DNA of 64,000 bases from Polytrichum commune (Eukaryota; Streptophyta; Polytrichopsida; Polytrichales; Polytrichaceae). Below the pieces are notes generated by a model. That model saw nothing but the letters and a program-made list of their open reading frames with translations, ran no database searches and was not told the origin of the DNA. Position numbers and translations under genes: made by a program. Shown piece after piece: positions 16,601 to 60,299 of the stretch (positions within the stretch are counted from its first letter, which is position 1; each line of letters begins with the position of its first letter). The DNA lies in the NCBI GenBank assembly GCA_950295325.1, contig OX485805.1, positions 4,898,501 through 4,962,500 on the forward strand, in the 5' to 3' direction.

Positions 16601-19600
16601 GTTGAGAATCACGACAGTAAATATTAACGTGTGAGATGATTTGCAGCAAGCGGGGCCTTTCAAATGTTACTATCATCACATGTGACATAAACACCTTCAA
16701 CATTGATGAGTCCTTTGATAGGATTCTTTCCATTGAAATGTTTGAGGTGGGCTTTCTCAGGTGCTTGCATTTTCTTCATGCCTTCAACTGAGAATTGACA
16801 TCTCAGGTTTCTATAGAATTATATGATAAGTCATTCTCTGTGAGTGTCGCTTATGTGTTCGCTCACTGTGAGGTCTTTCTTGTTAATTATCATATTTACA
16901 ATGAAGAATGTCATAACCTTGCTCAGGTTTATTGTCCTACTAAATTGCATGGCCCCAATCCCTGTCAATGTAGATGGCAAAGCACAGTTATGCACCAATT
17001 TGTGAATTCTTCTTACAACTCATTTACCATAAGATTCAGGTGTTTTTGTGATATCCTTGTGTGTTATGGAGACTTGAGACAGTCGAAGTTTGTATACAGC
17101 GGATGTGAACAATACTCATGAAGGTCCTCAATTTGCAGCACATGAAGAACTATGAGAAGCTCTTGAAGAAAATTTCTTCATGGTTGAAACCTGAGGGCCT
17201 CCTCTTCATTCACATCTTTGTACATAAATCGATGCCTTATCACTTTGAGGTATGCACCCAGGATGTTGCAAGTACAGTTATATTTTGACTTTCTCATCAT
17301 CCATACATTACTACGAGCACATACTGGAGAATCAGAGGTTACATGTCAGTCCTTGTAAACTTGGAAACCAATAGCATCGAGTCATGGTCATGAATGGGGA
17401 GATTGTGAACCCATGCTCAGGATGCACTTGACCTTTTTGTATGTACCTAGCTCTGAGACAAGATCTATGTTTAGATATTATCATATCATCACACAATCAG
17501 ATGACAGAGAGGCATGAGGGGTCAAAGCTGCTTTGAATTACTGACATCTCTCATGATAGTGAATTAAGTTGAGGAAAGTTTGTCTTCAAGATGACTGGAC
17601 ATCTGGGCAGCCCCGCTCTTAGAAAAGACTAAACAAAAGTACTTACAGAAGGTCTAGTATTCTCGAATGTAGGACATGTCATGCATTAGAAGAATAATAA
17701 GCTGCAGTATTATTTTATTTTTTTGAAATTACTATTGTGCTATGATTACTATTTGATCTTCGCTGAATTTTTATTCAACTTTGACACCCTTATATCCACG
17801 GTGAATGATATTCTGTGCTACCTGGTTTAAAATAAAATAAAATTTCTCCTAGAGGAGGTTACATAACATGTATTCAGCTGCTATCAGCTGTTCCATTCTA
17901 ATAATATCAATGGCATTGCTTCACCCGAGTTTATCAAGTTGAATCTGTCAATGCAATGCTCTCTTGAGAGAATAAATAGAGTATAATTCCGAATAAAATG
18001 AGGTTTATTCCCGGCCCCAACCAACGTACAAACTCGGTTGGATAATCTGATGGTACCTGTAGTACAAGTTTTAGTATTTTGTATTTCTCACAGGCTCAAA
18101 CGTGGAATATGGATGTGGATGAAACTCTTCACAGGATCAGGGAGAGGACGATTGGATGAGCCGAAATTTCTTTACCGGAGGAACAATGCTCTCAAAAGAT
18201 TTGTTGTTGTACTTTCAGGTAGCACACCTTATTCTTAAATGCATGATATGTCTTCTGCATAACTTAGAACAAGATTGCCTTCATTGGGTGCTCTATTACA
18301 TGGTGTTTAGTACGTTGCAACTATCTAAAGAATCAATTTATCATATGCTTTTGAATATTATAAAGGTAAGATAATGCTATAGCTTATCAGTGTCAAAATT
18401 GAAGACTTGTCCTGGTTGAAGAAACTAGAGTTTGAGATAGCCTTTGGGCAAGCTCAAAACCACCATGGATGCATCTTGTGGTGTAGCTTACAATACAATT
18501 CTTGTGGCATTTGAGGTTTTGATGAGTGTCATAATAAGTGTGTGTATGATAATTTTGTATGCCATGATGAGAGCTCGTCATTGACACTCATCATGGTTTT
18601 CTTATGGACCATTATGCAAAATATGCACAATGTTGTATAAAAACGTCACTTTTTGCAATACTGTGTGTGTTGCATCATCCAAGTTAATTCTTTCCCAAAT
18701 CAATGATTTTATGAGTTAAATGTTACTTATAGCTTCAAGCATATATTGTTTAAAGAAATTTTGACTTATATTGATAATCTTTTTTAATTTGTATTCTAAA
18801 ATGAACCATTTTGATGTATTCCCTTATGAGTTTTTTGAATTCACGTAAGAAAATGAAGTTGAAATTTAGTTCTTTGAATCAGGATTTAAATACTTCGAAA
18901 AGAGGTAGTTGGACATCATGAAGCCCAACTTGGACTACTATGGAATGTGTGTCCTATGTAATAACCTACGCTAACAATTCTAACTCAATTGAGAAATCAC
19001 CTTATGAATACTAGAATCGTTTTCTCAAATGTTTTTAAAGATGTCTTTCAAAAAAAAACAAGTTTATTAGTAAGAGCCTGTTGCATGGACTTGTACAATT
19101 GGAACCACATTTCAGTCCTTAGTACATGTACATTTTACCTATCCTCGCCTAAAATATTGGACCAAGGTTGTTTACACCTGCATCCACTGGTCCAATGGGT
19201 GCCCATGCAAATGCTCCAAATGACATTACATGGATGCAAGCTTACTTGCAGATGCCCGACAATTATTGATTTCCGGGCCAAATGCTGACTTCATCCACAT
19301 GAATTGTATTGTGTGATATTGACGCCTGGTTACAGCTGAAAGTTTATTCAATGCAATATTTTCAGTGAGAATGGAGGAATTACCCTTGACTTTTATTGGT
19401 ACTGATGGAGGCAAATGCTGCTTTGTGTTTGTTTAGGATGATGTCTCAATTCTAAACCATTGGTATGTAAATGGGACACACTATGGTGAGACCAGGTACA
19501 CACAGTGTCTCCTGTTTCTTCTGCTTTTGAGGTTTACTGTACATATTTTTCCCAGATGTTTATGGCAATAGCATTCTCTAACTCATTAAGGTAGACCTTA

Positions 19601-20256
19601 CATGAAGGCCTGAGAAAGTGAGGATTAACAAATCAACAAATCAGGGTTGTGTAATTCTTAAAATACGTAGGTTCTAGATTCCAATCTTTTGATGGAGAAG
19701 ATAAGAGGAGATAGTAAGAAAGAATTGCATGTATCTCCTTTTATATTTCAGTATGAACCAGTACACTAAATATTTGTATTTATTGTCACTTATTAATTGG
19801 AATTACACAATGCTATATCTCTTTGTTAATATTGTAATTTATTACCGAGTAAAGATGTTAATGTTCTGTAATATCCAAACAAGCAATGCAACCTTTGTTG
19901 GCAAAAAATGAGATATACACTAACTAGTTATACCATTGCGTAATTCCAAATAGTCAGTGATGCTAAATAAAATATTTAGTGTAGTAAGTATGTGTTGTGG
20001 TTTGAAAATGAGCTTTTGATCAAAGCCCACCTGCTGAATATTTTCCTTTTTCTTTCTTTACAGTGAGGCATGGCTGCGAAAGATGGATGCCCAGATTAAA
20101 GTGATCAGATCGATATTTGTAAAAACATACGGGGAAGCAGATGCAACTAAATGGGTTGCCAATTGGCGAACATTTTTCATTGCAGTGGCTGAGATGTTTG
20201 CCTATAAAAATGGTGAAGTGTGGGGAGTGTGCCATTATCTCTTCAAGAAAAAGTAA
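13636..20256 (+). CDS. (S)-coclaurine N-methyltransferase-like protein, AdoMet-dependent (8 exons)
   Basis: Exons by eye: 13636-13822, 15139-15247, 15886-16110, 16647-16746, 17139-17249, 18135-18218, 19437-19495, 20064-20256. All introns are GT-AG and the phases join without a stop, giving 355 residues, the usual length for plant CNMT-like proteins. What is seen: a helical N-terminus; QHYEVPTEFYQLVLGKRLKY near 78-97; AdoMet motif VLDVGCGWGS at 133-142; SIEMFEHMKNY with E204, E207 and H208 (the E-H pair straddles the exon 4/5 junction); EDDWMSRNFFTGG in exon 6; WRTFFIAVAEMF in exon 8; and a C-terminal LFKKK. From family knowledge, these Glu/Glu/His positions match the catalytic residues I recall for Coptis CNMT. 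Relatives methylate amine nitrogens of tetrahydroisoquinolines or phenylalkylamines, while many plant members have no known substrate. No targeting signal is evident, so it is probably cytosolic. The start chosen is the first ATG in frame after the last upstream stop; a second ATG follows four codons later. The GC-rich exon 1 contrasts with the AT-rich introns. Substrate is unknown. I leave the symbol blank because orthology to CNMT proper is not shown. Confidence 0.93.
14027..14735 (-). repeat. Tandem duplication in intron 1 with related antisense reading frames
   Basis: Two copies of roughly 0.35 kb, with a period of about 389 bp, start at 'catcggatccctctcaatgtcc'-type text near 14,029 and 14,418. 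They share 'aagaagaattcc', 'cagctcgtagagtg', 'atcgatccatgttgttgcg' and 'tctgtggtg'. On the minus strand each copy keeps an open frame with similar peptides: FQDMDGKYILLRYATTWID in 14,027-14,281 and FQELDGKYFALRCATIWIE in 14,553-14,747. The peptide is conserved better than the surrounding DNA appears to be, which points to a coding ancestor such as a mobile-element or captured gene fragment. I do not recognise the family. Confidence 0.65.
17826..18030 (-). mobile_element. Decayed retroposon copy in intron 5 (hairpin family, copy 4)
   Basis: Read on the minus strand, this ends in a T-rich tail (TTTTATTTTATTTTA, plus-strand 17,829-17,845), preceded by the hairpin CAGCTG-CTAT-CAGCTG (17,875-17,890). 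Further 5', text aligns with 59,074-59,275: 'ttctaataatatca', 'gtttatcaagttgaat' and the 'cccggccccaacca' end. The core next to the hairpin is degenerate compared with the other copies. No target duplication could be recognised. It lies wholly within intron 5 and does not touch the splice sites. Confidence 0.5.
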
Positions 20257-25704: not shown

Positions 25705-25709
25705 CACAC

Positions 25710-27249: not shown

Positions 27250-27252
<3 letters not shown>

Positions 27253-27353: not shown

Positions 27354-29846
27354 GTTGAGTTTAGAAGTAAACGGAGATACAAAGAAGTTCCAAGGCTACT
27401 GACTTCCAATGAAAATCTTGCCTCTTATACATAAGCAGATCCAATCCAAGTTCATCTTTACAAACAAGTACAAGGGATAATTTAGACAATAGTATGTAAC
27501 ATCATCAATCCTAATTCAAAGTCTATTGCCAGTACAAGATCAACAAAGGGTCAAGGTGAAGATAACAAAAACTAACTCCCAAAGACTATCGACATAACAC
27601 TTAATCTCCATATGTATCAGAAGTAATACAAAGTTTAAAGTCACAACCAAAGTCCAATAATTGGATAGATAATAAACCAAGGAAACTCTCCTATACTTAA
27701 GTTTTTGCTATGACTAGAATAACCAAAACCCAGGGTACAGACTCTCAAGGAAGGCTTTACTAGTGTCTATAATAGGCATTTGTCAAATTATAGTTCATTA
27801 ATCAAACAATATGGTTGCTATCTTCACTCTAATACATCACTCAATCATCTTTTACTCTCATTTCTCTCAAGGTCTCCTCTCATTGTTCCTTATTCAGTGG
27901 GGTCTGTGTGTCAATAATTGTAAGTATCCATTTCGTCATGAGATTGTATAACAATAGTCTTTGGAGAACAATAGTCTTTGAGTATCACAATTGTCTTTGG
28001 TAACCATTGGCCAATGCATCTTCAAATCACAACAATTCCTTCATTAATCAATCAACGTTAATTCCAATGCAAAACCAATTGTTTATTCCTTAACTCCAAG
28101 ATTTAATCATTACTCACAACTTATGTAACTAACAACAATTATCAGAGTCAAGCTATAGTCTTGATTGCCCTACACAACCTGCAACAACAACAACCAGAAT
28201 AACACACAAGACAATAGTTGATCTGGTTAGCTTGCATTTCATACTCAAAGATCTCGTCTCTAGATTATAAATTAATATAAAACTCCTAATTAAGTCTAGG
28301 ACAACTTATACCTTAATCTCCTTGATGATCCAAAGTTCATCCTAACTCAAGAACACTCCATCAATCTTAATACCCTTAATCCACCACTAATCAACTGATC
28401 AGAATTTTTTCTCATCACCTCAATTAATCAAGGGCTCTCTCATTAAACTAACTTGACACACGAAACTGCTATTAGTCTATACCGTTTACTTCAACTATAA
28501 TCACACTCGATTGAATTATTACTCTTTCTTCTCTCACTGCCTCTCACAGGCTCAACAATAGTCAATCACTTCACTTCATGGACTGACACTTGGCTATTCA
28601 TCTTCCCTACATTGCCTATCACGGGCCTCAACTATAGCCAATAGTTTCTCAATACTCAAACTATCTCTAGGCCTTCCGGCTTCCTTTCTCTTGAATGTTA
28701 CCCCTCACAGGTTTTAACTCCTCTCACCACTTCCATAGTCTCTCTGCGCCTCTCTCTCTGGGCTACTCTGGTTAGCATTCAACAATGCTCTCCATTTAGC
28801 ATTTATCTCCTCGTACAATTCTCTCTCTCTTTCTCTCTTTTAGGTTAACACCCTATGTTCATAGTTTGACTTAATTCCTCCCCCTTAATGCTCTTCTCAT
28901 TCAATTTCCATCTCTCAGATTGGGTAGGCTTCTCATTCAGACAATAGTTCGCTCATATAACAATCTTCACATTCTTGGTTTACCGTTCCAGTAGGCTCAA
29001 CTATGTTCAATATCTCACCCTCTCATTGCTTACTCTTCTGTCTCATTCACATCCTCCCTCACTTTTAATTCTCTGTCAATCTCTCATTGCTCTCTACAAT
29101 TTGGACTCACTCAAATTCACTTTCGACTTCGGTCTCAACCGATTACAATTCCAACAATTGATAATAGTTTCACACCTTCTTCTTATCTATTCTACCTCAC
29201 ACTCTGCTTCGCTCAATCACACTCAAATTCATACTCTCACCCAAACAATTGCGACTACAACCATGGACAATCGTTTCACAGTTCACATTTATTCATCAAA
29301 ATTAGCAAATAGTTCAACCGGACTTTGGTCCTTCAATAAGCTTTCAATTCAAAATAACATTGTTCTTCCACAGAAATCGGTAACCAACAATCAGTCAAAT
29401 TACAAAATAAATAGTTTAACAATATCCTCGCCCGCTCTCGGTGCTGAGGGAGACAAGTCTATATATAGTTCCACAATACGCTCAACAGTGATTAGGAAAT
29501 GTTTACTTCCTTCCCTCTCGCCAACCTTCTTAGCTCGGCGGGGAAGACGATAGTTTCCTCAACCGGCCACCTATGGCCACGCCTATAGTTGTAACTGCCC
29601 TCCTACCCTATAGTTTAATTATTTTCATTTTCTCAGATGAAATTCATCCGAGCTTAACTATCTGCTCATAGTTAAACTAATTAGCCAAAATTTCGGCTCA
29701 CATCTCCCTTTCCAATACTTATAAAGGACACAAACATTCACAATAATTAAGGGGTAAGCCTACTTGCAAAGGATCATATATTAATGTAATCAACTCTCCA
29801 AGACTATTGCCCAAAAAAAACTTAAAAGTTCGAGAAGAAAAAACTC
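27354..29846 (-). mobile_element. Putative LTR of a minus-strand Ty3/gypsy-like element
   Basis: The block starts tgagtttagaag and ends cttttttgagt inverted (plus-strand '...aagaaaaaactca'). Minus-strand text immediately outside is 'gaatgagggggtagtatta', a polypurine-tract-like sequence, and before it a short reading frame ends in EAFFFKNEGVVL then stop (minus strand, about 29,950 to 29,847), as expected for the end of a polyprotein. A TATA-like 'ctatatatag' at about 29,459-29,468 is correctly placed inside an LTR. The interior is pyrimidine-rich on the plus strand and dotted with 'caatagtc'/'atagttt'. I found no second LTR, and the internal region is interrupted at 30,035 by a hAT-like element. 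The boundaries are tentative. Confidence 0.35.
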
Positions 29847-30034
29847 ATAATACTACCCCCTCATTCTTGAAGAAGAAAGCCTCCATATTCACAATTATGC
29901 ATGTGCTAATCTCTAGGGTTGCACCTTCTCCAATCAAACCATAGTCCTTCAAATCCTCCATGTTTCTAATCCCCTTGATTATGGTCTTTCTTGTCACATG
30001 TCAATTAAATATCTAGCTCTAATTGAGCTCGTTT

Positions 30035-30658
30035 TCTCGGGGAGGTCACTCCCTCTTATATTAATGCATACACATGCGCTTAAGACTTATTTATCGGGGG
30101 GCTATTTACCTTGTAGAAAAGATTATAAGGTAGGATATTTTTCAAAATAAAGGTAAATAATTGTATTTTAATACACCCTATCAGTATTATAATTTTTTGG
30201 GGGAATCATTTTAAAATACCCTATTTTATTTATATTGCTAAAGAAAATTGAAAAGAAGATTGCAATCAAACAACATGCTGAAATTTTCCCTCCCAACATG
30301 TAGGTAGAGAACATTAACTCCACATTGGATACGTTGGTTCAGTAACGTTCAAGCCAACTAGTCTGCAAAGTCATCCATCCAAGCCTTTTCAACAAAAAAT
30401 GACCTCTTTTCATCCACTAGCATAGACCCTACCCTAGACCTACAACCCCTAGTAATTATTCCCACTCTATTTTACATGTATTAACTAGATAAAAGAGGCC
30501 ATTATATGTGATGGTATATTAAATGTAAACATGTTTCACTATTTTTAAAATCCCTAATTTATATGTACGTTTTTTGCAAAATTTATCTACAATGAATATA
30601 ATAGACCCTTTTTTTATCGCACATTGTTTCTACAATTTTCACTAGTGACCTCCCCGAG
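30035..30658. mobile_element. hAT-like non-autonomous element (624 bp), 8-bp TSD
   Basis: The left end TCTCGGGGAGGTCACT and the right end AGTGACCTCCCCGAG are inverted copies. They are flanked by perfect 8-bp duplications gctcgttt (30,027-30,034 and 30,659-30,666). An 8-bp duplication is the hallmark of hAT (and P-like) elements. There is no transposase inside. The terminal sequence is shared with the elements at 37,147, 38,007 and 48,780. Confidence 0.8.
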
Positions 30659-30797
30659 GCTCGTTTTAGATTATTTTTCATATCTTCTTTAACTTTACCC
30701 CAAAATACTCTCCATACTCATGTTTTTGTTGGTGTAGACTTTCCTCCATTTAATGCACCAAATGTGCCATATAATTTAGAAGCAATTATATATTGTT

Positions 30798-31250
30798 CTC
30801 CCTCTTTATTAAGACACGTTTGGTTGCACAAGAAAATGTTGTATTCTCGGTAGTATGACATTTTGGCCTCAAATGCCGTACTCTGAAGATTCTTCAAGAT
30901 GTATTATTTTTAGTATAAAATGTCATTTTATATACATATTGAATATACATAAATATGAAAGAGCATTTGTATTAAAGAAATATGCTCACAACATTCTCCA
31001 AAGTTTTTCAAGGTTTTCTTGCATGTTCCAATGCATTATTTAGATATGAAACTTGAAATGTATGTGGGTCCCATCGCCTATGCACATTAATTACCTCTAT
31101 TATATGACCAATAATGCCTAAAAAGTGTCGTATTACAAGCGTTGTAGTTGTAGTATGGAGGTAAATTTAACACTAAAAAGTTCGGTCAACACAAAATGCG
31201 TTGTATAGTCGAGGTGTCATATAATCAAGTTTTGTAATAACGAGGTTAGA
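30798..31250. mobile_element. Probable copy of the CTCCCTCTTT-terminus element
   Basis: The left end 'ctccctctttattaagacac' resembles the TIR of the element at 63,190-63,852. Internal and right-hand text ('gtcgtattac', 'gtcatataatcaag', 'taataacgaggtta') resembles its right half and the piece near 10,160-10,290. The right boundary is approximate and no target duplication was recognised. Confidence 0.35.
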
Positions 31251-31488
31251 CTATAACTCTATAAACACATAGAAATTAAAAGTTGACACCTCCACATGCA
31301 TCTTGCCATTATTTACAAAGCTAAAGATACCATTGAAATTATTGTAGTTGACTCAATACATTGCAATTTTGTATCTACAAATGGTGAGATATGACCACTA
31401 GTTATAGATGGGCTGGTTGAGTTAAGTCTTTGGCCAAATGGCGTTATCCCAAGCTACAACTATATTCCACCCTCACACCATCAACACG

Positions 31489-31506
31489 CCCCCCCCCCCC
31501 CCCCCC
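31489..31506. repeat. Poly-C tract (C18)
   Basis: Eighteen consecutive C, followed by G and more C, open a C/A-rich, apparently non-coding stretch to about 32,500. Similar runs occur at 35,683-35,695 (C13) and 48,345-48,358 (C14). Confidence 0.95.
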
Positions 31507-33664
31507 GCCCCCAACCCACATCATCATTCACCGTCATCGGGCACACACGTACATAAAAAAACATTAACCCACACATTACCTCCATGAAAGATCATGTATG
31601 CACTAAACTAACAAAGCATGTGCCAATGGCCCCCTCCAAGTAGTACCTCGCATCTCCTTTCCGACAACATCACTCTGGAACACAACTTCTTACTCCTAAC
31701 ACAATGCTTAAGCCAACGTAACAACATGCACTAGCAACCCACATACCACACTCACCATCAACAACAACAATTCCTGGACAATAGACACAAACAACCCTTA
31801 TTGCACCACACCTCGCCTTAAAACCCAACAATGTAACTCATACATGGACATAATTTCCTCCACACCCACCATAAAACCCATCCCACCATGCGCATAGATA
31901 CATAATCACACCGGTGAGTACATTACCACCACATCTAGCAACCGTTTACAATGGCCATAGGACAGATTCACCCAACCCACATCAATACAAACACAACTCC
32001 AACCACCCAAACAAGACTTTGAGACAAAACTCTTATGGTTAATACAACGATGCATCTCCCTGCTCCCGAAGATCAAACCAAAAACTATGGTTTCAAACAA
32101 TAGAACCATCACCTCCAAACCAACATCATGAAAACTCTAATCACAACCTTTAACATCACTCACTCATACTACTCATCCCCCCTCACATGCCCAATGGAAT
32201 TCACACAATATCACTCACCACACCCAATAGACATCCTATTTGGAGTTCGCTCACCACAAATGGGAAGGATTAGGGTATGCTCATCAACGGACCACCAATC
32301 CACAATCGAAGCTATACATTGGGCATGTATGACCGCACAAGACAATCATCTAACCTCTCCACACTATCACACACAACTGTAAAATTCCCAACACAACCTT
32401 GAATAATACAAGACTATGTATTGAAATTGGAGAAAATCAAAGTTATTCGACTCAAATCCTCCCTTGACTCCCTCAAAATCATTAAGACCCACCACATCTA
32501 CAAATGACATACGTGAAAGTGGTACCTATGTTTTTTTGAAGATCTTATGTATTGGTTGTGACTTAATGATATAATTTTTTATCATGAAATTGTTGCAAAG
32601 TGTCACAATTACTACATGGATTCCTATATGATATGCAATGGATAAAGTGTCATGGGTTAGGCATCATGTTTTGTGTCAAGCCCACAAGAGGTGCATCTAA
32701 TACAAACCCAAGAGACCATGACCCTTCAAAACCTTTGATGTTTTATAACTCATTGTATAGAAAGACCCCCATGAATAGGATAATATTGAAACACCATTAA
32801 GTTAGGAACTCACTCATGCATGTATTTACACTAGACTTTGAGGCCCATGACTACATAAAACTCAATTTCAAAACATTGTGGTATTACTATGAGACACCTT
32901 ACTCGAGTTGTGTGACACACTTGAAGTGCATACATTGCCTTTGGATTGAATGAATTGCTTAGAGCATGATCACTCGTTGTACACCAAATACTAACACAAA
33001 GGGGTGATACATTTGATAACATTATTTTAGAGGGGAGTACAGTAGTCTCAGTACGTGTCCCACATGTTCACTCATGATATGAGCTTTATCAAATGTGGGT
33101 CCCATTATTCAAACTAATATTTCACACAACAGGCTTTACATAGAAATAACTAACCACTTGTCAATATATTTGGACAAACCACTTGACCAAAAGCAATAAG
33201 GGAAGTGTAGCTTTGGGGACAAAAACACCAAACGACAACATGAGAAGCAACAACACAACAACCACAACATCAAATGTTGTATTCCATGTTCGCCAACCAC
33301 CATACTTGCGTACGTCTGCGATCTAGTGTACGTCATATTGGCGGTTGGAATTGTTTAGAATTCATGCATAAATCCAAATATACTTAGCTCCTAGTTAGAT
33401 AGTTGAAGCTAAGATTCTATTTGGTCCAAGATTGTGAGGTATTGACAAGTGATTCCCTTACATAGAAGATGGGAACACACTCCTCTAAAGGTTGACTATT
33501 TGAAGGGGTGGAAGTTTTAAGAGGGGAGAGAGCTCCCTTAATATGTTGGTAATGTGAGTGTGTGAAAACCTATTTTCTTCAAAAAATACCATGTAAATAG
33601 ATGGTAATTTTTTATGACCCCCATTTGTATTGGTAACATCTGAACATGCTCTTACATTATCTTT

Positions 33665-40457: not shown

Positions 40458-43400
40458 GTCCCGGGATATTGACATGCATCACTAAAGAACTGTCTTACAT
40501 TGTTTAAAATTCTGCAAATGTGCCACAATGATAGAATAGTGTCTTTCTCCTCACCGACAGGAGACAATTGCTTAGAACTCGTATGATAGTAGTAAATTAA
40601 CTGATTTAGAATACAAGTTGCTTACCACACATGGTGGGACCCATCTATTGCATGAAAATTACATTCATTCACTTGGATTGCCAAAAAAACTTTGAAAACC
40701 AATGATGGTCCAATAATTTCCTTTATATTTGTAGTGGGGCGGAGTTGCTTGGATATATGGTCCCCATTCCGAGCACCAAGCATCTCCCTTGTTATGAATG
40801 CTCTTCCGAGAGTCATGGTGAACTAGAGTTCACTAAAGCCTAAAGTGCATTCCACTTCCAAGTCACATCTCCCATTCTTGATCATTCCCAATCTCGTTTT
40901 AAATTCCAACATGCCCATGATCACCTAAAGCTTCTCATTCGTGCACACATGTGCATAATTTAATATTCACGACTCCCTCACGAAGGCCGTTACCGTCTTT
41001 ACTTGGATAGTAGAAAATCAAAATTATGTTAGTGGCTTCTTGTTCTTGTAGTCCTTGTCACCGTCGTAGTATAACACTCTAGTTTCTAGGATGTAGGTTT
41101 CTTTATTTCGTCAAAAGGTCGCAAGGGTGATGAATTCTATTCAAAAAGTACTTTTGTGGCCGCCGAAAGTTATCTATTGAATCAACTCTATTTGCAAGCT
41201 AGAATGTAAATGATTCATGGCATGTCAAATGGAGACTTAATATTTGAATGACATGCAAGTAGTTAGTAGTTGTTGAGAATAAATAGTACGACCGAAAAAT
41301 AATCCTATGAACATTCCTATATTGTTTCTTAGTTAAACAAATGCTATCAAATAACAATACTAGAACAATAGCTATTAACGAATGATGTTTCTATTGCAAT
41401 GGTGTAGAGATTCAACAATGTAAAGGACAAAATGTGGACCATGTATGGGGAAGGACTTCTTTAGTCTTTACAAAAAAAAGAAAAAAGAAAAAAAGAAAGA
41501 AGAAAAAAAGAAAGAGAAAAACCAAAAAATAGGATTGTTAGTTATGAATGTTGGGATTTTTTTGTTTATTTTTTCTTACGTTCCTTATGTGAAAAGGTAA
41601 AGTTTTGTGATAGTTCCAATATACAACTTATTTGTTTGGGGAACTTTCATAATATGAGTGATCAATTATACTATAAACTTGATCCTACCCTTATACTTTT
41701 ATTGCCATTTCATTTTTTAGACTCTAGATGTAGACCATAATGTAAACTCCTTGCATAACATTACTCAACACTCCTAAATAAAAGAAGATTGGACCATTGA
41801 CAAACACCATCCGTGGCACCCCCGCCATAACACCTCCCATTCTTTGTGCCCCCCCCCTTTCCCCCCAATTACACGGAGCCCACCAAAAGGAATGCAATGC
41901 ACATTGTCATGCATCATGTATACCCATGATCAGTACAAGGAGAATAAATTCACATTCACGTTAGTGCATAATAGCGACGTTTCTTTTCTTTTCTTTAATC
42001 AACTCTATGCACTTGAAGTCTCACATAATGAATGCTTCTCAATCACCAATACCATGATGTTAAATATTCTTTGAACTTAGTACGAATGTAGTGTCAACTT
42101 TTTTGCTTCCTCTTTTTGTTACTCTTTGAGACAAAAGGCCAACAAGCCTATGCCAAGTATGAATTAAAAAGAAACATATGTGTCCACCCAAAGGGGACGC
42201 AAAGCCCCTCAAGTGTGCCACACCACTGTATAATGAAAGGAACCAAATAGACCAAAGGATCCAAACACTACAAACAACCCACCAAGCCACCAACCAAGGA
42301 CATCCTCCAAATCACTGCCACAAATCACCAAGAAAAACTTATCACCAAAGCCACCGGAAGAAGCGCCTCATGCTAATGCCGATGAAGCTTCCAATTTCAT
42401 TGTATCACGAGATTGTCCTTGCAACAAAGAATACCTTTAGCTCCACTAGTTCGGTCAAGACCTTTCAAGATTACCTTAGTCAAGAAGGGGCTAATGTTTA
42501 CATACTTAATGACCCTAGCCCAAACCATTTGGGCATACACGATGATGCACTCATCCCAATTTGAGGTATTGAACTTTGAATTTGTGTTGTTGGGTGTGGT
42601 CAAAGTCGTGGTCGTTTCTCTCGAATTGCATAGTCCATAAGGTGATGCGAAAGGTAGTTGTAGTTTGCACTGCAATCTTTTTGAATGATTTCATTAGATC
42701 CACAACAAACAACGTTAAAAGAAACCACAAGGTGGGTGACATATATAATTGCAAATTATCAATTTGTTGACCAAGTTAAATCTCATAGACCTCCAATAAC
42801 CTAACTTCTTAAAGATTTTAGTGAACGCAATAATATGCCACCAACCACTACCATAATAATAATTTTAAGCATCCATATTAGGTGTTTGACATTGAATCAA
42901 CAAATAATTAGACATTGAGAAATAGTGTTGTCAACACATTTTAAGATTGTTAGTTCCACAAAAATTGAAGTGAAAATAAATATAAACACATAGAAGTAAG
43001 TCGTGCAAGACTATTCAAGACTTTCAATTTAATGCATTATTAGAGTTATTTAGAAAGTGAAACAGATGCAACCATGGATTTGCTCCAAAACCCCGAGTTT
43101 ATGAGACTCTATGAGTCACCCAAGTTTTCTTAATGCTTAAATTATTATAGGCAAAGAGCGACGCCGGGCTATTCAAAAGCTTGTCCTATTGGGACAGGTG
43201 GGCCAGGCTAGCCTTGCATAGACCAATCTAGGGTTTAGGTTAACATGTCTCATGCGCATGTGGACATATGTTAGATTCTAAATTCTCCCAAAGTTTCAGA
43301 TGTAGAAAGAGGAAGTCCCAAAACTTCCACCCAACTTTTCAAAGTTGGCTTCGATACACAATGAGCTAACAATCTCTCAATATATTTTTTCTCAAAGAAG

Positions 43401-46400
43401 GATCAAACACATGGTTTCATCCCTCTTTAAGCGACTTTACAAATAACTCCATTATGGCCATAATTTGAGTACACACGTGTGCTTTCGACATGCACCATGC
43501 CCCAAGAACAATCTAACATGCACTAATTCTCCCATACAATTGAGAATATTGGAATCAAACATGCAACAAGGCTCGTGTGTGTGTGTATATATAGAAGGTT
43601 ATCGTAACGTTCACCAAGTTGGAGCCTATTATTGATATCAACAATATCAACGTGAGAGGTGAATCTTGAAGGGACTTGTGGGCTCAATTAAAATGTGCAC
43701 ATGGGCTTTGACCAAGGCTCGGGAGGTGTTACAAACACGAACGATTCAAGGCTAATTTGGGGCCTTTTTATACTCAACTCCATAAACGGGGCATGCATTA
43801 CGGTTTCGAGGGGTTAATTCTCTAGCCCCTTATCCAGTAGCTCAGTAGTTGAGGAACTGCTCACAAATGGCCTATTCCTTTGCCAAGGGGAGCTTTCTAA
43901 ATCCATACGGAGACGACTCTTGTCGCCACATCCATCCACAAGTGGATGGGTTGGATGGATGAATGGATGGATTACATCATGTGTGGATGAAAGGACCCGA
44001 CACGCACTCTCGGAGGCCGATGGAACATTTTAGTATATACCAATCTCCTAACCTTTAACTTGATAGGTAGTTATTAATTTTGCTTCGTTTCATTTACCTT
44101 GCAAAAAAAAATTGGGTGGGGTTTCGTGTTCTCTCTTCCCAAGGAAGAGAGGCTCGATTCAACATGGATATTTATCACGGCTGAAAGTGTTCATGTCTAT
44201 AACTTTCAAGTAACCATTTTAGGCTTGTTTCTATAAGTAACTTCTATTCCCCAAGGATCTCAAGGTGTCCGTTATATCGCCTAGTTATTGTCTTGAAAAT
44301 CACACTATCTATCATAATAAGGGACACACATAGATTGAGGTTAAGCCCATGCACAACTCACCTCATTGTTAAGCCTAATCCTTGGGATAAAAAAATTTAT
44401 AAAAAAATTACACACACACACACACACATGGGCAATAAATATAAATAAATAACCAAAGTTGGGCAATCCGATGTGAATTGAGCCTGTTGGCCTTACCCTG
44501 CTCAATAAACCTCTTGATGCAGGGTGGGGTTTACTGCCTACTTTGCAGTGAGTGGGCTCTTGGATTCCTACTTATCTAGCTAGTTTTTTTTTCCGTCAAG
44601 TAGAAAGAAAAATTCACAGCGGAAATTGAATTGCCAACCACTTCATTCGGAAATGGGTACCTCTCCACTATCACCCAGTAGTTTAGGGCCATCTCGGTAA
44701 TTTAGGGTCACACACGAGCATGTATGATGCCACACAATCCTACCAAAATCCACCTTGAAAGTGCCATGAGTAGGTTCAACTACTCCCGACATCTCCTTAC
44801 ATTGGTTGGATGGCCCCATGTAACTCTTGTGTATCATGTATTTCACATGGGAACTCCCTCAAAGTAGAAACCAAACATTTCGGCTCAATACCATTCTACA
44901 CATTTGTCACACTACACTTCAAATGTTGTAAATAGTGTCACCGATTCTATTTGTCTTGCTCAATGCTATTTGCAAACCGTCCATGTAGTGTCACCAACAC
45001 TAAATTTAAACCTAAGATTATTTGTCATTGCTTGTAAAAAAAATTAAAAATGGACATTCTAGATTTACAAAGCTTGCAATTACTTATCACTTATTATGTT
45101 TTTCCATCCAAAAATCAATCATCCATGACAATATTTTGTTACGGACATGTTAGGATGCATTATAAACCAAAAGTGGATGAACTAAAAGTAAGATGGGACG
45201 TCATTACTTGTAAACTTATTCATAAGAAGTGCCATTAGAAAAGTTACCACTGTGACATAAAGTACCATATAACACTAAATACAATATTTAGTGTAGCTTT
45301 ATTGAAGAGGTTGTGTCATACTTCACTTTCTCACTTAGTAAATTTAAGTATACCTTCTCTAAGTGTTACCTCTATAAGTGTTATTTGCCATAAGTGTTAC
45401 ACTTTTCATAATTCCCTTGAAAAATACACTAGTAAGTGTTATCGGTTACTCTACTATTTAAAAAAATCACTTCTCTCTTTGTTAATTTATGTTGCATAAT
45501 TTTTATTTACACCAAATCCATGAAACATATTCTCTGATGATGTGAATTTACGACAACTACTCTAAGTGACAATGTTGGAGGGTGGTGGAGAGCGAGCCTC
45601 ACCAATTTGATTATCCAAAGTGATTCACATGTACCCCTTTCATTAGGGTGGTGGGGAGTTCTACTGTTGAGTCTCCTCCCCCTTAAAAAAAATGGATACT
45701 TAAGAATTTGTTTGTTGAGTCATTGGTATGTCTATCAATGTCTATTTCTTTATCTTGGTATCTCTTTTAAATACATTCATTCTTGCACATGTGTTAAGTG
45801 TCATTCACTTGGTTTGTTGTATACTCCAATCAAGTATTGCAAGTGCAACTTACCAATAGAATCTTACATAGACCTTGATTATGTTCCAAGTGAAAAAAAC
45901 ATCTTAAATATACTTGGTAATTAGCCCAACTCTCTCCCTCTCTCTCTACTCTCGGCTAATAGCCAGTGAAGTAACGGCATTTGCCCAGACGATGGCCCCT
46001 CTCTGTAATCTCTTTGTCAACATCTTTCGGTAAAGGCTATTGTCCTCTCGGTTGGCTACTAAGCATCCCTCGGGGTTCTCTCAACCCTCTCTCAAGACTA
46101 TGGCTCTCAACTTTCTGTACTTGGCCAATTGCATGCACTCACTGCTCTCGGCCAATATGCCTAAATCTAAGATCATCGCTCACAGAGCCCTTTCATCACT
46201 TGCCTTCTTTTCGACAAGCTAATCGTCACCCATCAAGTCTCTTCTCTTACTACTTGCCCTTGTTGGTTTCTCTAAAAGCTATTCAACGCCTTCGACACTG
46301 GCCTACTATCCAAGACCTCTTGTCTCTGACATTGCAACCTCTCAAGTCTCCACTGCACTCTCTTGCCAGCTTGCCAACACTCTTCATCACTCTTCCGACC

Positions 46401-47930: not shown

Positions 47931-48736
47931 GTTTAACGGTGACTCGTGAGCCTCTCAAATGCACTTCACAAGGCGCTTGAACACCCACTTCCACACCCCA
48001 AAAACCCATGGAGCGTGGCCCAAGTAGTGTGAGGGATCGTTTAGGGTTTATGCGGTTTGAGCACATGGGCCTTCCCCAAATCCATCCAAAAGAGTATGCC
48101 CGCCACACGACTACCTCAATTGCTCTCCGGCCTTTTGGGCTTTGTACCAAGAGAGCAATAGTGGCCCATATGTTGCCAAGTGGAGTAGGATGTCTTGGCC
48201 ACCTTGGATCTCCATGCATGGTGGAAGCCAATCCACAAAGACCGCATCATGCGCCTTCATTCAAGCCTCTCACCCGCTAGAGCCCCACGGCTTCCCTTGG
48301 AATGAGAAGCCACCATGGAGCCACGTCATGTCTTCATCCGTTCACCCCCCCCCCCCCCTTCCCTCCCCCAACACACACCCCCAGATGGAGATTCTATAAT
48401 GTTTCTCGTCAGTTTCATTTTAAGTCCCTGAAACCCCTGATTCTAAATCTTAAATCCTACAAAAAAAATTCGTGTGTTTTATTCCTATAGTAACCAGCGT
48501 TAAAAATAGTGGTGAATGTTGATAGTTTAGCGTGGGGCAAGCTTGTTGCACATATCCGTGTAGTTTATCCTAGTGTCAATGTTTCAAATCATCGCGACAC
48601 AAATCTATGTTAAATAAAATGGTAACCCCTCTTTCGGTTGTCGGGCCAGGCTAAAACTGGTCCAAGGCAAGGTTCTTTGCAAATGCTCTAATTTTCTCAA
48701 GTTGATGTGTGATTTATATATAACGGAGCTTGTGGT

Positions 48737-49264
48737 ATAGGAGGCATAACACCATATGTCGCATCATGGTTGACTGTGACACGGGGAGGTCACTTCATTG
48801 TCAAGTTGACACCACGTGCGGACAAAGTTTGCTACCCCTATATTACATGCCATAAATAATTTTAAATTTTATGATATTTTTTGTACATATACATAACCAT
48901 TGATAGTATCTTTTGTATATTTTTTTGAAATTTTTAGTCATCTTTGTTTTTTTAGTAAATTTTTTAGTTCAATTATGTGTCATTCTAGTTAGAAACGGTA
49001 TGTTTTATGAAAAAAACAAATCATCAAATTTAGTTACCACTTTTAACTATGTCATAGGAACTGTGTATATCTACTCATGAAAAAAAATTGATAAAATTTT
49101 GACCCATTTTGGTGGTGCAACTTACCAAAAGAAGATTTTTTTTGGTCGCACGTGGTGTTCAACTTGACAATGGAGTGATCCCCCCATGAACTGTGATCAA
49201 CATACGGCTAACGGGCTCACATTCGTGCTGGTACTTGGATACGGGCGTTACTTTTATTTTATTG
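48737..49264 (+). mobile_element. Short retroposon (hairpin family, copy 2), split by a hAT MITE
   Basis: The body is 48,737-48,779 plus 49,197-49,264 (111 bp once the MITE and one 8-bp duplication are removed). It has the hairpin GTTGA-CTGTGA-TCAAC, then ACGGGCTCACATTCGTGC, then ACGGGCGTTACTTTTATTTT and a T-rich end. The flanks tataacggagctTgtggt (48,719-48,736) and tataacggagctCgtggt (49,265-49,282) form an 18-bp target duplication with one mismatch. A long duplication plus a T-rich 3' tail indicates target-primed insertion by LINE machinery. Confidence 0.7.
48780..49188. mobile_element. hAT-like MITE (409 bp) nested in the retroposon
   Basis: It is nearly identical to, and the same length as, the element at 38,007-38,415. 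It starts CACGGGGAGGTCACTTCATT and ends GGAGTGATCCCCCCATG. The flanks gactgtga (48,772-48,779) and aactgtga (49,189-49,196) are an 8-bp duplication with one change. It splits the loop and 3' stem of the retroposon hairpin, so it is the younger insertion. Confidence 0.88.
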
Positions 49265-49277
49265 TATAACGGAGCTC

Positions 49278-49301
49278 GTGGTGGTGGTGGTGGTGGTGGT
49301 G
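49278..49301. repeat. (GTG)8 microsatellite
   Basis: A trinucleotide run starts inside the right target duplication of the retroposon at 48,737-49,264. Confidence 0.9.
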
Positions 49302-50266: not shown

Positions 50267-50391
50267 CTTGTCGAGAAGAAGTCTATGGGCGATGAAAGTA
50301 GCTTCTAGCTTCTGGTGAGGCCACGTTGCCTGTGCTTTCTTGACCGTCGGATTTGACCGATGTAACCCTCCTCCCCTGATCTCCTCCGTCC
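50267..50391. repeat. Second copy of the 125-bp segment at 11,281-11,405
   Basis: About 92 percent of positions are identical by eye, with abrupt ends on both sides. The copy sits in AT-rich sequence and is not bounded by recognisable TIRs. See the first copy for details. Confidence 0.6.
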
Positions 50392-54556: not shown

Positions 54557-55040
54557 GAGCCATTTCACACACAAGCCAAGAGCCATGACCATGAAATTGT
54601 GAGAGCCCAAAAGAAAGTGTCCAAAGACCATCCCAAGATCATGTAGTGTGGTCATGGATCCTCAAGTGTAGAGTGAAGTCCTATGTGACCGGGCCCTCAA
54701 CCAAATGCTATTTCAATGATTTTTCTTCATGCATGACACATGATGAAACATAATAAATCAAAGGTTGTGAACATTCGGAGTGCCATGGTGTCCGGTTTTG
54801 TGTTAGGCCTCCCTCCAAAAGATGATTTTTGAAAATAGTCCAAGTGACCATGAAACACGATCCATTTGATGCTATGTAGGAATCCATGCATACTCTACAT
54901 CCATCTTGCATTCACATACTGCGTTGGTCCCTCAAGCGTAGTTTGAAGTAGCGAACTTGGACCGGCTCCGCCTTTTCCACCAATGAAAGTGCTTGATGTG
55001 TGATGGTCACGGGCTCGCAGTCTCATGTGTGAAGTGGCCC
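54557..55040 (+). mobile_element. PIF/Harbinger (Tourist-like) MITE, copy 2, 484 bp
   Basis: Left terminus GAGCCATTTCACACACAAG and right terminus CTCATGTGTGAAGTGGCCC, flanked by TTA on both sides (54,554-54,556 and 55,041-55,043). It is homologous throughout to the element at 33,794 (opposite orientation) and to the next copy only 73 bp to the right. No coding content. Confidence 0.85.
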
Positions 55041-55608
55041 TTATTCTATACTTCATGCCGCATGTGATTAATCGCTTTCAACAATGATTTACTCGATGGC
55101 ATTGTTGCACTCATGGTCTCTTCACACACGAGCCAAGAGCCATGACCATGAAATTGTGAGAGCCCAAATGAAAGTGTCGAAAGGTTGTCCCAAGACACCT
55201 CCCAGATCATGTACTATGGTCACAAACCCTCAAGTGTAGTGTGAAGTCATATGTGACGGGGCCCTCAATTAAATGTTATTTCAACGAAGTTCTATTCATG
55301 CAGGTCCTCACACATGATAAAATAGAATAAATCAACAACTAGGAACATTCAGAGTGCCATGGTCTCCCAGTTTTGTGGTAGGCCTACCTCCAAGAGGTAG
55401 TTTTTGAAAATAATCCAAGTGACCATGAAACATGATCCATTCGATGCCATGTAGGAATCCACGTAGACTTTACATCCATCTTGCATTCGCATACTCCATT
55501 GGTCCCTCAAGCGTAGTGTGAAGGAGCGAACTTGGACCGACTCCGCGTTTTCCACCAATGAGAATGCTTGAAGTGTAATGGTCTCGGGCTCCCAGTCTCG
55601 TGTGTGAC

Positions 55609-56828
55609 TGTGAGCCCAAAAGGGTGCCCACAGTTGCTCTTAACTCTTATTTCTCATCAAATTTGGGTTTTCAATTTATTTATTCAATCAAAATGCATAA
55701 AAAGAATGGGATTTGGCTTTGGATTTTATGTTGAGCTTAAAGCTTGTGTGAGTGTATTTAATGTAAGGAATTCGCGGATTAGCTAAGGGGTGATTAGATT
55801 AGTGTGGTTGTGCTTGAAGGACGGACACAGGATCCGGGGGGTTGATGTTTGAATTATGACCCTTGGATGTAAGTTCTAGGGGGTTGAGGTTTAGTAAATG
55901 GGTTAGTGGATAAGCTCTTGTTCAAAAGTAGAACCCCGAGATTACAAGGAGAGAGCTCTCGGTGTTGAGAGTCTCTCTTTTTGGTGTGTGTGTGCGGGAG
56001 AGCCCCTGGACAAGGAGGAGGAGCTCCTGGTTTCGGTGCCCAAGCACCCTGGCTCGGAGATAGGGCCACTGTTTCGGCGCCTAAGCACCTTGGTTCGGCT
56101 ACAGAGCCACTGTAACGGCGACAAAGTTGATGTTTCGGTGCCCAAGCACCTGGGTTCGGCTACAGAGCCACTGTAACAGCGACAGAGTTACTGTTTCGGT
56201 GCCCAAGCACCTGGGCTCGACGACAAAACCACGGTTCGGCGACAAGCACCCTGGCTTGGTGACTGGAGGCCCTGAGGCCGGGAGCTGGCCTTGCGTAACC
56301 TGTTGATGAGGGTCTGTGAGCAACCAGGCAAGGGTGCTAGCTAGCCGGAGTCCGACCTGCCCTGGTCCCGGTGACGGGCGATGACGGGCAGCGTCCCAGA
56401 GCTGAACATCGTACAATCACACTCCAACCACCGAGACTGAAGTTCAAATAGTGTAAAGGGGGGGTAGTAGTAGGACTATATTATATGGCGGGTGGGTTAA
56501 CTAGTCTAAAGGTGAAGGATTAGACTAGGAAATTAGATTAGGGGGGAGTTAGGGAGACACTAAGTGTGATGTGTTGATGTTAGGGAGTGAACCTTAGGTG
56601 GGGAATTGTGTGCAATGTTGTGAGCTAGTGTGGGAAGTGTGTAATAAGAGAGGGAAGCATTTTTCAATGCTTGCACTTTCATTGTGGAGTAAACCAATGT
56701 GCCAATACCAATGTGGAGTGCTATGGAGATTGATGTTGTTGAGGAAGTGGAATCATGTGAGCAATGAATGTGAGCTCCATGCCCCCACCCGGACTACGAC
56801 GCCTAAGGGTGGGTGGTTTGGCCTCACA
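55609..56828. mobile_element. Solo LTR (1,220 bp) inside a MITE, 5-bp TSD gtgac
   Basis: It starts TGTGAGCCCAAAAGGGTGCC and ends GGTGGTTTGGCCTCACA, with perfect gtgac on both sides (55,604-55,608 and 56,829-56,833). A 5-bp duplication with TG...CA ends is diagnostic of LTR retroelements, and the absence of an internal region makes it a solo LTR. It is related by its ends to 25,710-27,225. The centre (56,031-56,260) is GC-rich and tandemly repeated, unlike its AT-rich surroundings. Confidence 0.88.
56031..56260. repeat. GC-rich tandem repeat in the solo LTR, about 60-bp units
   Basis: The unit begins 'tttcggtgcccaagcacc' and recurs at 56,031, 56,072, 56,133 and 56,193, with a degenerate piece near 56,234. 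The spacings are 41, 61 and 60 bp. 'tacagagccactgtaac' is repeated within the two 60-bp units. Confidence 0.85.
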
Positions 56829-57810
56829 GTGACGTGGCCCTCACTTGTTGACAACTTAAGGATTAAAAATAGGTGTTACCAAAAAGAAGGTGTTATAAAG
56901 TAATGGTATGCGTGCCATATAAGGAGGAGCAAAATGTGTTGCATGCCATGCATATACCACATGTGATAGTTGTGGGCCTCGGTAGCTGGACCTGCCTATA
57001 ACTTGGTCACACACATGTTGTGGGAATTATTAATCACAGGTATTTGACAGGTCACTGGGCTTAACTTGACACATTTGACTCCCGGTCTTATTCCAGTTTC
57101 CACCTACTACATTACATATTCTCTGACAACATGACTTCGTTTCAACAGTACTAAACTCTATAACACCGACATAATAAGATGAAAATGAAACGTCCGAGTG
57201 TTTTGAGGTAGGTGGGTCTTACGTTGCACGTTTTCTTAATCGGAGCTCTATATTTAATGGGTATGTGGTTTACTGAGGATTGAAGGGCAAGCATCGTAAA
57301 TAGACATTGTTTAAAGAGAGATTGGACTACGTCTTTCAGTTTTTTACTTACTTGGCACTCGATGAAATCAATTGAAATCAATTTTGATTATAGAGTCTAG
57401 GTAATGAAGAAGGTTAGTGGGATTGAAAGTACGTCATGATGGTTTCAAACTAGCTAAGGGCCGGTTTACACTACAGTGGAGAAGGCCTCCGGTCGGTCAA
57501 GAATGCTTGGCCAAGACATGGTTATATGAGGCAAATGGTGGATGTGCCGGAGAAGAATTAAAGGCAATTGTGTTCATAAGAATTGTGTAATATAATGTTC
57601 AATTTTATTCAAAAGATAATGAAAATTGCCAAATTGCCAATTGTCAAGTTTGGCCCATGTAGGAAATAAATGTCTCCTTGGGTGTTTAAGAATGAAGAGG
57701 GGAAAACCCGTACACATTGGACAAAGCACTACTCTTTGGTATTATTTAAGACATGCTCTCCTCTTAATCATCCTCATCAATTTCTCTCTTCTTATCTTTG
57801 ATCTTCAATC

Positions 57811-58204
57811 ATGGATAATCGAAGAAGAGAGATTTTGTGCTCTCTTATGATCTTTATGGTTTTGAAGTATTTTATCGTTTCAACTATGGCGATACAAAAA
57901 ACCATCATGTATCACCATAATGCTTCAATTATGATGATGGCATAATTTTTTGTTTGGGAGCAAGGAGAGGGTGGTGTGGATATTTGACCGGCCAAGTGGA
58001 TATGTGTCACAATTTCTTCTTGGATCATATAATGCAAAAATGTTCAAAGATCGTGTACGGGTGAGTAAGCCTACTTTTTTTTATTTATGTCATTTGCTTG
58101 GACCCATGTTGAGCAAGAAAGATACAAAATTAAGACTTTGTATTCCAATAGAGTGTAGAATTTCTTTGACATTGCATCGATTGGCAACCGGTGATACTTT
58201 GTAC
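57811..58204 (+). pseudogene. PIF/Harbinger (HARBI1-like) transposase, N-terminal remnant
   Basis: After an ATG at 57,811 (MDNRRREILCSL...) the frame stops near 57,943. From about 57,956 a second frame reads RPSGYVSQFLL, MFKDRVRVSKPTFFYLC, LLGPMLSKKDTKLRLCIPIE and RISLTLHRLATGDTLY. This is the typical helix-rich region just before the nuclease domain of plant HARBI1-like transposases, where the 'RLATGD' motif normally precedes 'y..ig..fgv..st'. After DTLY the sequence loses similarity and runs into a (GA) repeat. The DDE nuclease domain is absent and at least one frame break is present. Confidence 0.75.
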
Positions 58205-58260
58205 AAAAAAACCGGTGAAAAAAAATTGCACCAAAAACAATTGCTAAGGAGCTACTACAT

Positions 58261-58263
<3 letters not shown>

Positions 58264-58292
<29 letters not shown>
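58264..58292. repeat. (AG)14 microsatellite
   Basis: An uninterrupted AG run directly follows the transposase remnant. Confidence 0.95.
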
Positions 58293-58294
<2 letters not shown>

Positions 58295-58375
58295 CTTGCC
58301 AACACCTTAGGTTTTGAAAAAAACCATATCTGAAATCTACGGTCCAAATCTGTTTGTGAAAAAAAATTATTTTTT

Positions 58376-58457
58376 AGTTGGGCTTCTCCGGGGGAGGAGT
58401 TTCTTGTCCGGCCTCTCGAGGCTGGACAAGAAACTCCTCCTCCGGAGAAGCCCAACT
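58376..58457. repeat. 82-bp near-perfect palindrome in the PIF/Harbinger element
   Basis: The left arm starts AGTTGGGCTTCTCCGG and ends GTCCGGCCTC. The right arm is its inverse with two mismatches in 40 positions, leaving a loop of about 2 nt (around 58,416). It is GC-rich within an AT-rich element. Transcribed RNA would fold into a long hairpin. Confidence 0.92.
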
Positions 58458-58979
58458 CCAAAAAGTGCCGCCATGTAGGCGGCCATGTCATTTTATCATC
58501 CATGAGAAAAGTTCACCACCATTGTTTTCTTCACCTAGTGTAAACAGCCACCGGTCAAGAGTTGCATTTTCGACCAATCACAATTGAGAAACGCCCTTTT
58601 TTTCATGACCGGTGGACTTCTCCACCGTAGTGTAAACCAACCCTAAGTCTCTAAAGTGGCGGAGTGCGGTAGTCTCTGTGAGATAGGGTCTAATTGAAAG
58701 AAAGACTTGAGGCTCCTTAGGATTGCAATCTCAAATAGTGATGGAAATTTATCTCTAATGGGCATATATAGGGGACATTCCAACACTCGATAGTGAACAC
58801 AATTGGGAGGACCTATGTATCCCAGTTAACAAATCAACAAACATGCACTTCTGATAACCGTAACTAAATCGGGGGGAGTCCGAATTTCAAACCGGTTTTT
58901 GCATATGTTTTGTCATGGATTTGCTAATGCGACGCGAGTTTTGTTGTGTAATCTAAGTGGCATAATTTTGGACAATATG

Positions 58980-59275
58980 AAAAAAAAAAAAAAAAAAAAA
59001 AACCAAATAACACCCACATACCTTAACACCAATGTGAATGGGAGCCCGTAACATTATTTGGTTGCTATCAACCGTTCTATTCTAATGATATTCAGTGATA
59101 GTGCTTGACACGAATAAGTCATAGTTTATCAATTTGAATTGCTTAGGAAAACATCCATAAGGTACAAGTCTAGCACCTTACATGACATCTCCTAGCCCCA
59201 CCTGTAACGTACCTTGCTAATAGTTCATAAAAACAATCATTTATTGAGTAAAGCTCACCTCCCGAGTCCCAACCT
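58980..59275 (-). mobile_element. Retroposon (hairpin family, copy 3) with 23-base tail
   Basis: Read on the minus strand, the 3' end is a run of 23 T (plus-strand A23, 58,980-59,002). It is preceded by GGGTGTTATTTGG, the core TTACGGGCTCCCATTC (59,037-59,052) and the hairpin GGTTG-CTAT-CAACC (59,060-59,073). About 200 bp further 5' aligns with the intron-5 copy at 17,891-18,030. The 5' end is near 59,275 ('cgagtcccaacctag'). No target duplication was recognised and no open frame is present. Confidence 0.55.
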
Positions 59276-59577
59276 AGAGACACACCACAAAACATAATGT
59301 GTGTTATCCTTCCCCCGAGCCATATTTATACATAGTATCTATGAGATACTTTTAGAAGTCTCAAGTCTTTCTATACATAGATTGAAGTCTCCTAATCTAT
59401 ATGCTTAAATCACTTTCCCTTTTGCTTTACATAGATAAGAATCATCCAACTTCTCGTCCCTCGACTTCCCATTCATCCACGCTTCTTAGTCTTGAACATT
59501 CATCCTTGCAATTCATTTCCATCCTCACCAATACATTTCCCAATTAGTCCATTATACCACCCAACCTTGCCACTCAG

Positions 59578-60275
59578 CTAAATAATATTATGCTTGTTTT
59601 GCCTTGCCTTCAGCGATGGGACAAAGTGTATGCCAAGGTACGTGTATGGTTCGTTTTGGGATAAGGTTAGGAATGGTTTGTTGATGAAAGTATTGTTGTG
59701 TGCTTGTATAAAGGCTTTAAATGTGGTAGGTTTTAGGTTAGATTTATTTGGGCACCATGTGATGGCGCATTTGGCAAGATTGAGGTCTAGGTGTGCCCAT
59801 TTTGAGATTTTTTGTAGTTTGTTTATTTGTGGTTTTATTTGCGTGATGTTGTCAAAGATGATGGGAAGGTCATCTACATAAGTTGTGGTGCAATATAGGT
59901 ATTGAAGTGGTAGCCTATGTTATCTTTTTCGAGCCATCTTAAGAGTGGGTTTAGGAAGATGATGAATAGGTAGGGGCTTAGTGTGTCTCCTTGTATTGGG
60001 CCACAACTAATTTGGATTGGTGGGGTGGCTCCAAAGTGGCTTCTATGGAAGGAGGTGGTAGAGTTTATGTAAGAAAAGAAAAGAAAAATTACGCCCGTAC
60101 ATTGTACCGGCATGAATGTGAGCCCGTTATCCAAATGTTTAACACGGCGAGCCGTGTTGTCACATATAGTAGAGTTTATGTACATGTTGCCGATGAGTTC
60201 TATGGCATCACATGGGTATCCTAGGTCTTCCATCAGTGTGAGGAGTCTAGCATGGTCGATAAATCCAAAGGTGGA
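59578..60275 (-). pseudogene. LINE reverse-transcriptase fragment, interrupted
   Basis: On the minus strand, 60,275 to 59,874 encodes STFGFIDHARLL, MEDLGYPCDAIELIGNMYIN, then after an insertion HFGATPPIQI, GPIQGDTLSPYLF and LNPLLRWLEKDN. A frameshift near 59,895-59,905 leads to TTTYVDDLPIIFDNI, WAHLDLNLAKCA, TYLGIHFVPSL and a stop at 59,578-59,580. QGDxLSP and YVDD are the palm motifs of non-LTR reverse transcriptases, and the downstream 'YLGI' block is also typical. The fragment lacks the endonuclease and the amino-terminal fingers, and its 5' side ends abruptly near 60,275. It is 5'-incomplete and inactive because of the frameshift and the insertion at 60,058-60,182. Confidence 0.88.
60072..60168 (-). 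mobile_element. 97-bp retroposon (hairpin family, copy 1) inserted in the LINE
   Basis: It is flanked by a perfect 14-bp duplication gtagagtttatgta (60,058-60,071 and 60,169-60,182). On the minus strand it has the hairpin AACACGGC-TC-GCCGTGTT (60,141-60,158), then AACGGGCTCACATTCATGCC, GTACGGGCGTAA and a T-rich tail TTTTTCTTTTCTTTTCT. The core is the same as in the copy at 48.7-49.3 kb. With its duplication the insertion is 111 bp, so the host LINE frame stays open across it. Confidence 0.8.
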
Positions 60276-60299
60276 TATATATAACACATACATAACATT

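Follow-up and report, generated by a model that had tools for sequence, protein, structure and literature searches.

Plants contain long interspersed nuclear elements (LINEs) of the L1 and RTE kinds, and the abstract of Seibt, Schmidt and Heitkam (Plant J, 2020) is said to report compensatory mutations within and beside the Angio-domain of short interspersed nuclear elements (SINEs). This domain is described, in a passage of PMC9033089, as a segment of 37 base pairs (bp) that many SINEs of angiosperms have at their 3' end. Passages of PMC5135761 and PMC3747384 present 3' stem-loops as essential for LINEs of the stringent type, and in the latter the stringent-type L1/SINE pairs of maize and sorghum have a conserved 3' end of about 50 nucleotides (nt) that includes a hairpin with compensatory changes in its stem, a conserved CGAG beside the stem and UCU in the loop. 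T-tract ends are mentioned for p-SINEs and Au-like SINEs (passages of PMC3747384 and PMC5787218), and the partner LINE of these T-tailed plant SINEs is called unidentified in a passage of PMC3747384. In legume SINEs linked to RTE, a passage of PMC13295347 describes a Tn end and target duplications that begin with T, then usually A, giving a Tn-TA signature. Here we analyse a 64,000-nt stretch of contig OX485805.1 (the window) that holds dispersed copies, A to E, of short elements with a hairpin, a T-rich tail and, in A, B, C and E, a core containing ACGGGCTC. We consider that A, B, C and E are probably the 3' ends of T-tailed SINEs, copied by a LINE enzyme that reads the structure of the RNA 3' end and works through target-primed reverse transcription.

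Copies A and B are homologous insertions with target duplications

The evidence for retroposition is strong for copies A and B, for which target duplications, T-rich tails and homology were all observed. Their features in the window are as follows.

60072..60168, minus strand: copy A, 97 bp long with a (TTTTC)n tail; homologous to B, with an exact 14-bp duplication
60058..60071: target duplication of A, 3' copy, 14 bp, exact
60169..60182: target duplication of A, 5' copy, 14 bp, exact
60141..60158, minus strand: hairpin 1 of A (AACACGGC tc GCCGTGTT)
60091..60128, minus strand: 38-nt core of A, AACGGGCTC...GGCGT, containing hairpin 2 (60091-60113)
48737..49264, plus strand: copy B, interrupted by a transposon, tail (TTTTA)n
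48719..48736: 18-bp target duplication on the 5' side of B
49265..49282: its counterpart on the 3' side of B, 18 bp, one mismatch
49210..49248, plus strand: 39-nt core of B, including hairpin 2
48780..49188: 409-bp inverted-repeat transposon inside B, with inverted ends, 8-bp flanks and a second copy

A and B are true homologues, their alignment reaching 77% over 78 columns with E-values of 8e-12 and 5e-12 (BLAST, within the window). The original prediction had given two copies target duplications of 14 and 18 bp, and both were borne out, in each case beside the T-rich 3' end. Copy A sits inside a LINE-like reverse transcriptase frame, and removing the insert together with one repeat leaves a single open reverse transcriptase-like frame, which is open with A present too because the insertion adds 111 bp. 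The duplications begin with TA in both copies (2/2), as passages on the legume RTE-linked SINEs describe, whereas the T stretch about 10 nt upstream mentioned there is absent in A and reduced to TTT at −8 to −6 in B, and an RTE partner was not seen. Both copies look 5'-truncated.

The 528 bp of B include the 409-bp element, which is flanked by GACTGTGA/AACTGTGA, 8-bp flanks that differ by one base. Its ends are confirmed by a full-length second copy at 38007-38415 that is 94.6% identical over the whole length; both copies have inverted ends of about 45 bp. Once the transposon and one of its 8-bp flanks are removed, B measures 111 bp, and its stem homologous to AACACGGC/GCCGTGTT of A becomes ATCATGGT/ACTGTGAT; the hairpin GTTGA/TCAAC that had been proposed for B was thus read in a wrong register.

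The core motif and a further copy, E

The 14-nt motif ACGGGCTCNCATTC occurs exactly in three places of the window, in A, B and C, so that the claim of a core in three of the four copies originally listed (A, B, C and D) was upheld. Allowing up to 3 mismatches gave 16 matches against 7.26 expected, a number reached by 0/100 shuffles. Among the 13 inexact matches, no copy was found at the 7 whose surroundings were inspected by eye, and the remaining 6 were covered by scanning the whole window with models R1, R2 and R3. One core pattern was scanned against two collections that hold no plant reference sequences. It had no match in genome_contigs, and its single match in viral_contigs (L001) was rejected as chance, since model R2 gives that place 7.1 bits and an E-value of 1.6 and ranks it second among 13 weak hits there. 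Four long core strings searched as text were not found in the papers searched, and for five shorter ones the papers among the matches listed were unrelated, as judged by title and start of abstract.

Two further loci, both absent from the original list, emerged from searches of the window.

41901..41996, plus strand: copy E, tail (TTTTC)n
41913..41930, plus strand: hairpin 1 of E, 6/8 pairs form
41958..41980, plus strand: hairpin 2 of E
44433..44528, minus strand: candidate F, weak

The first sign of E was a BLAST match of A to 41950-42007 (63 columns, 70%, E-value 1.6e-4, partly owed to the simple-repeat tail), and 5' of this match lies a hairpin at the position equivalent to that of B. A MAFFT alignment of A, B and E has one gap across both stems and the linker. 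Models were then built from the cores of A and B with the tail left out. With structure, E was the third of 12 listed hits, after A and B (E-value 0.0037), and on sequence alone the fifth of 14 (0.041), these E-values being roughly calibrated; a T-rich tail adjoins E although the tail is not part of the model. In the fixed register 15/21 pairs form in E, which is matched by 413 of 127842 window positions, and for the inner stem alone 5869 positions pair as well as E. Because E had been found beforehand, the model and pairing tests confirm it rather than discover it. Homology and tail, read from the sequence, make a retroposon reading of E moderately supported. The same reading is weak for F, which has E-values of 0.017 with a model of A, B and E, 0.53 with the tail-less model of A and B, and 9 for part of F on sequence alone.

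The window is AT-rich, with many T runs and small hairpins, raising the possibility that the shared order is a matter of chance beyond A and B. The E-values of E and C (0.0037-0.11, roughly calibrated) and the drop of F to 0.53 once the tail is omitted are compatible with this. However, E pairs in the predicted register, which few positions equal, and carries the tail unit of A, while C holds the exact 14-nt motif plus a T23 tail, and we regard chance as quite unlikely.

Bases of the two stems appear to change together

Two stem-loops are common to A, B and E; the first precedes the ACGGGCTC core and the second lies within it. The tail RNA of the copies is predicted to fold, probably, into two hairpins, and the paired bases of these hairpins seem to change together. 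From A to B, all 8 inner pairs of hairpin 1 are kept (two of them as G-U) despite changes at 6/16 letters, and two pairs are changed on both sides. Only 0.8% of 200000 simulations with an equal number and kind of changes keep all 8 pairs (P 0.008); the corresponding value from A to E is 0.046, and these two are the only low ones. When the simulations were confined to 6 pairs, A to B and A to E both gave 0.023, C to D 0.15 and D to C 0.50.

Across A, B and E, 5/21 pairs are changed on both sides and 88.9% of 63 cells are paired, each reached by 5/500 shuffles, and the covariation score is reached by 14/500; these figures rest on three sequences in a register picked after inspection of A and B, and related sequences can exceed shuffles even without structure. 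Control registers obtained by sliding pair 19-43%. The outer part of hairpin 2 reads ATGCC/GGCGT in A, GTGCT/GGCGT in B, ACGTT/GACGT in E and ACATT/GGTGT in C, and all five outer pairs form in each (4/4). The earlier claim that stems stay paired although their bases differ has modest support, in the corrected register, for A, B and E (5/21 pairs, 5/500 shuffles).

Copies C and D have another upstream body

58980..59275, minus strand: copy C, consisting of an upstream body, a hairpin at 59060-59073, a core with the exact motif at 59036-59049, hairpin 2 and a T23 tail; no 5' end fixed
17826..18030, minus strand: copy D, C-like body and hairpin (17875-17890), no core, tail (TTTTA)n; no 5' end fixed

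C and D match over 92 columns of upstream body and hairpin (72%, E-values 9e-9 and 7e-9), and D is without the ACGGGCTC core. Their hairpins read GGTTG/CAACC in C and AGCTG/CAGCT in D, with two pairs changed on both sides. The idea of one family of four copies did not hold, since the core is common to A, B, E and C and the upstream body to C and D. Because C and D have another upstream body, bodies and 3' ends appear to have been combined as modules. For C, the homology and tail point moderately to a retroposon; for D, the case is weak. The best candidate for a duplication at D is equalled by 84/2000 shuffles.

C and D might instead be pieces of a long terminal repeat (LTR) element or another repeat, with a hairpin, and in C a core, unrelated to those of A, B and E. 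The letters upstream of C look promoter- and polyadenylation-like when read by eye, neither copy has a detected duplication, and the hairpin of C is offset by about 3 nt from that of A. On the other hand, a search for terminal direct repeats in 16500-19000 and 57500-60400 found none, C has the exact core motif and forms each of the five outer pairs in hairpin 2, and both copies finish in T-rich tails, leaving an LTR or other-repeat origin unlikely.

D apparently sits in an intron: according to our own gene model, coding pieces of an N-methyltransferase-like gene flank it at about 17.1-17.3 kilobases (kb) and 18.1 kb. This multi-exon gene (13624-20253) resembles plant-type N-methyltransferases of the pavine/coclaurine type, with an E-value of about 1e-38 for the joined pieces.

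A LINE enzyme may start copying at the structured, T-rich end

The retroposon reading, that of a structured 3' end with a T-rich tail, gains support for A and B from duplications, tail and homology, and for E and C from homology and tail. Under the proposed mechanism, A, B, E and C would each preserve the 3' end of a SINE, a short retroposon that is not autonomous. Towards its 3' end their RNA would have a hairpin followed by a linker some 12 bases long, then the 38-39-nt core, which would form the second hairpin, and last a run rich in U that in A, B and E would be built of 5-nt units. A LINE reverse transcriptase would most likely bind this structured end and begin target-primed reverse transcription at the tail, which would leave a T-rich DNA tail and a target duplication of 14-18 bp. 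Selection for recognition by the enzyme could keep the stems paired while their letters drift. The shortness of the copies, their T-rich tails, the target duplications and the conserved, structured segment at the 3' side are in keeping with SINEs mobilised by a LINE that recognises the 3' end, and the copies may have originated from polymerase III transcripts.

Several results weigh against this reading, in addition to the small alignment and the choice of register noted above. A LINE with a matching 3' end did not turn up, the analysis having covered a single LINE fragment of the window, and box A plus box B in the usual order and spacing were not found in the stretches of A, B, C, D, E and F; a poor pair (1 and 2 mismatches, 25 nt apart) lies inside the core of A only. 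Such a promoter may still be present in full-length copies. The number of pair types in the stems is not unusual, being reached by 226/500 shuffles, stem simulations gave 0.16 from B to E and 0.21 from C to D, and the six pairwise comparisons of hairpin 2 gave P 0.21-0.40. For E, nhmmer without the tail gives only 0.36, and 15/19489 random pieces equal E in their match to B. No convincing target duplication was found around C, D or E. Finally, the models of A and B detect C at 0.11 with structure versus 0.015 on sequence alone, structure being of no help because the first hairpin of C is displaced by about 3 nt.

Alternatively, the copies could stem from a LINE, with no SINE involved: they would then be LINE 3' ends that have lost their 5' part, and the structured tail would be the 3' untranslated region of that LINE. 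The scanned stretches yielded no polymerase III promoter, and A and B measure only 97 and 111 bp, both of which would agree with such an origin. By contrast, no LINE coding similarity was noticed in the upstream body of C and D, which is about 200 bp long, and the 5' breaks of A and B fall within 14 bases of one another, which would be rare under truncation of a long LINE. With one LINE fragment of the window covered, we consider a LINE 3' end improbable and a SINE the likely identity of the element.

The LINE fragment looked at is the reverse transcriptase fragment at 59578-60392, whose matches to RVT_1 score 26.5 and 19.4 bits, short of the curated cut-off of 29.6. Among solved structures, the best matches of its 172-amino-acid piece are R2 retrotransposon proteins (E-value 1.9e-5 over 43 amino acids), and its 113-amino-acid piece had no relevant match there.

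In outline, the copies appear to fit the published Angio-domain or Au-like kind of SINE. As in the Angio-SINEs, so far as passages describe them, a conserved 3' segment (37 bp there, 38-39 nt here) is found in otherwise different short plant retroposons, and filing the copies under this kind seems probable on a likeness in kind and length that is one of description only. With Au-like SINEs and p-SINEs, as these passages portray them, the copies share a T-tract end, whereas Au SINE is given as 181 bp with a polymerase III promoter and A and B have 97 and 111 bp with none found. The 3' hairpin with its seemingly compensating changes resembles that described in passages on the stringent-type maize and sorghum L1/SINE pairs, while the tail here is T-rich and almost all plant L1 LINEs are said, in a passage of PMC3747384, to end in poly(A). 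The two-hairpin 3' end with its seemingly covarying stems represents a concrete query for the partner LINE of T-tailed plant SINEs. A more speculative and rather doubtful proposal places the host among land plants other than flowering plants and takes the ACGGGCTC T-rich structured tail for a version of the SINE 3' domain of angiosperms that is older or has spread horizontally, used by a LINE that starts on U-rich tails. The one hint on the host is the N-methyltransferase-like gene of the window, which seems to differ at several sites from its flowering-plant versions; if the host does lie outside the flowering plants, this would date such tails.

Other features of the window

An Rfam search of the window returned 0 matches at gathering scores, and a tRNA scan with the bacterial setting returned one tRNA-Ala (TGC) at 4401-4475, distant from every copy. 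A near-perfect inverted repeat at 58370-58463 consists of two 46-nt arms, 91% complementary, around a 2-nt spacer. Within 54850-55750, similar stretches near 54.9 and 55.5 kb share CTTGCATTC.CATACT and GGTCCCTCAAGCGTAGT, and probably form a diverged direct repeat. Strong local guanine-cytosine skew, −0.43 and then −0.28, is seen in 28001-32000.

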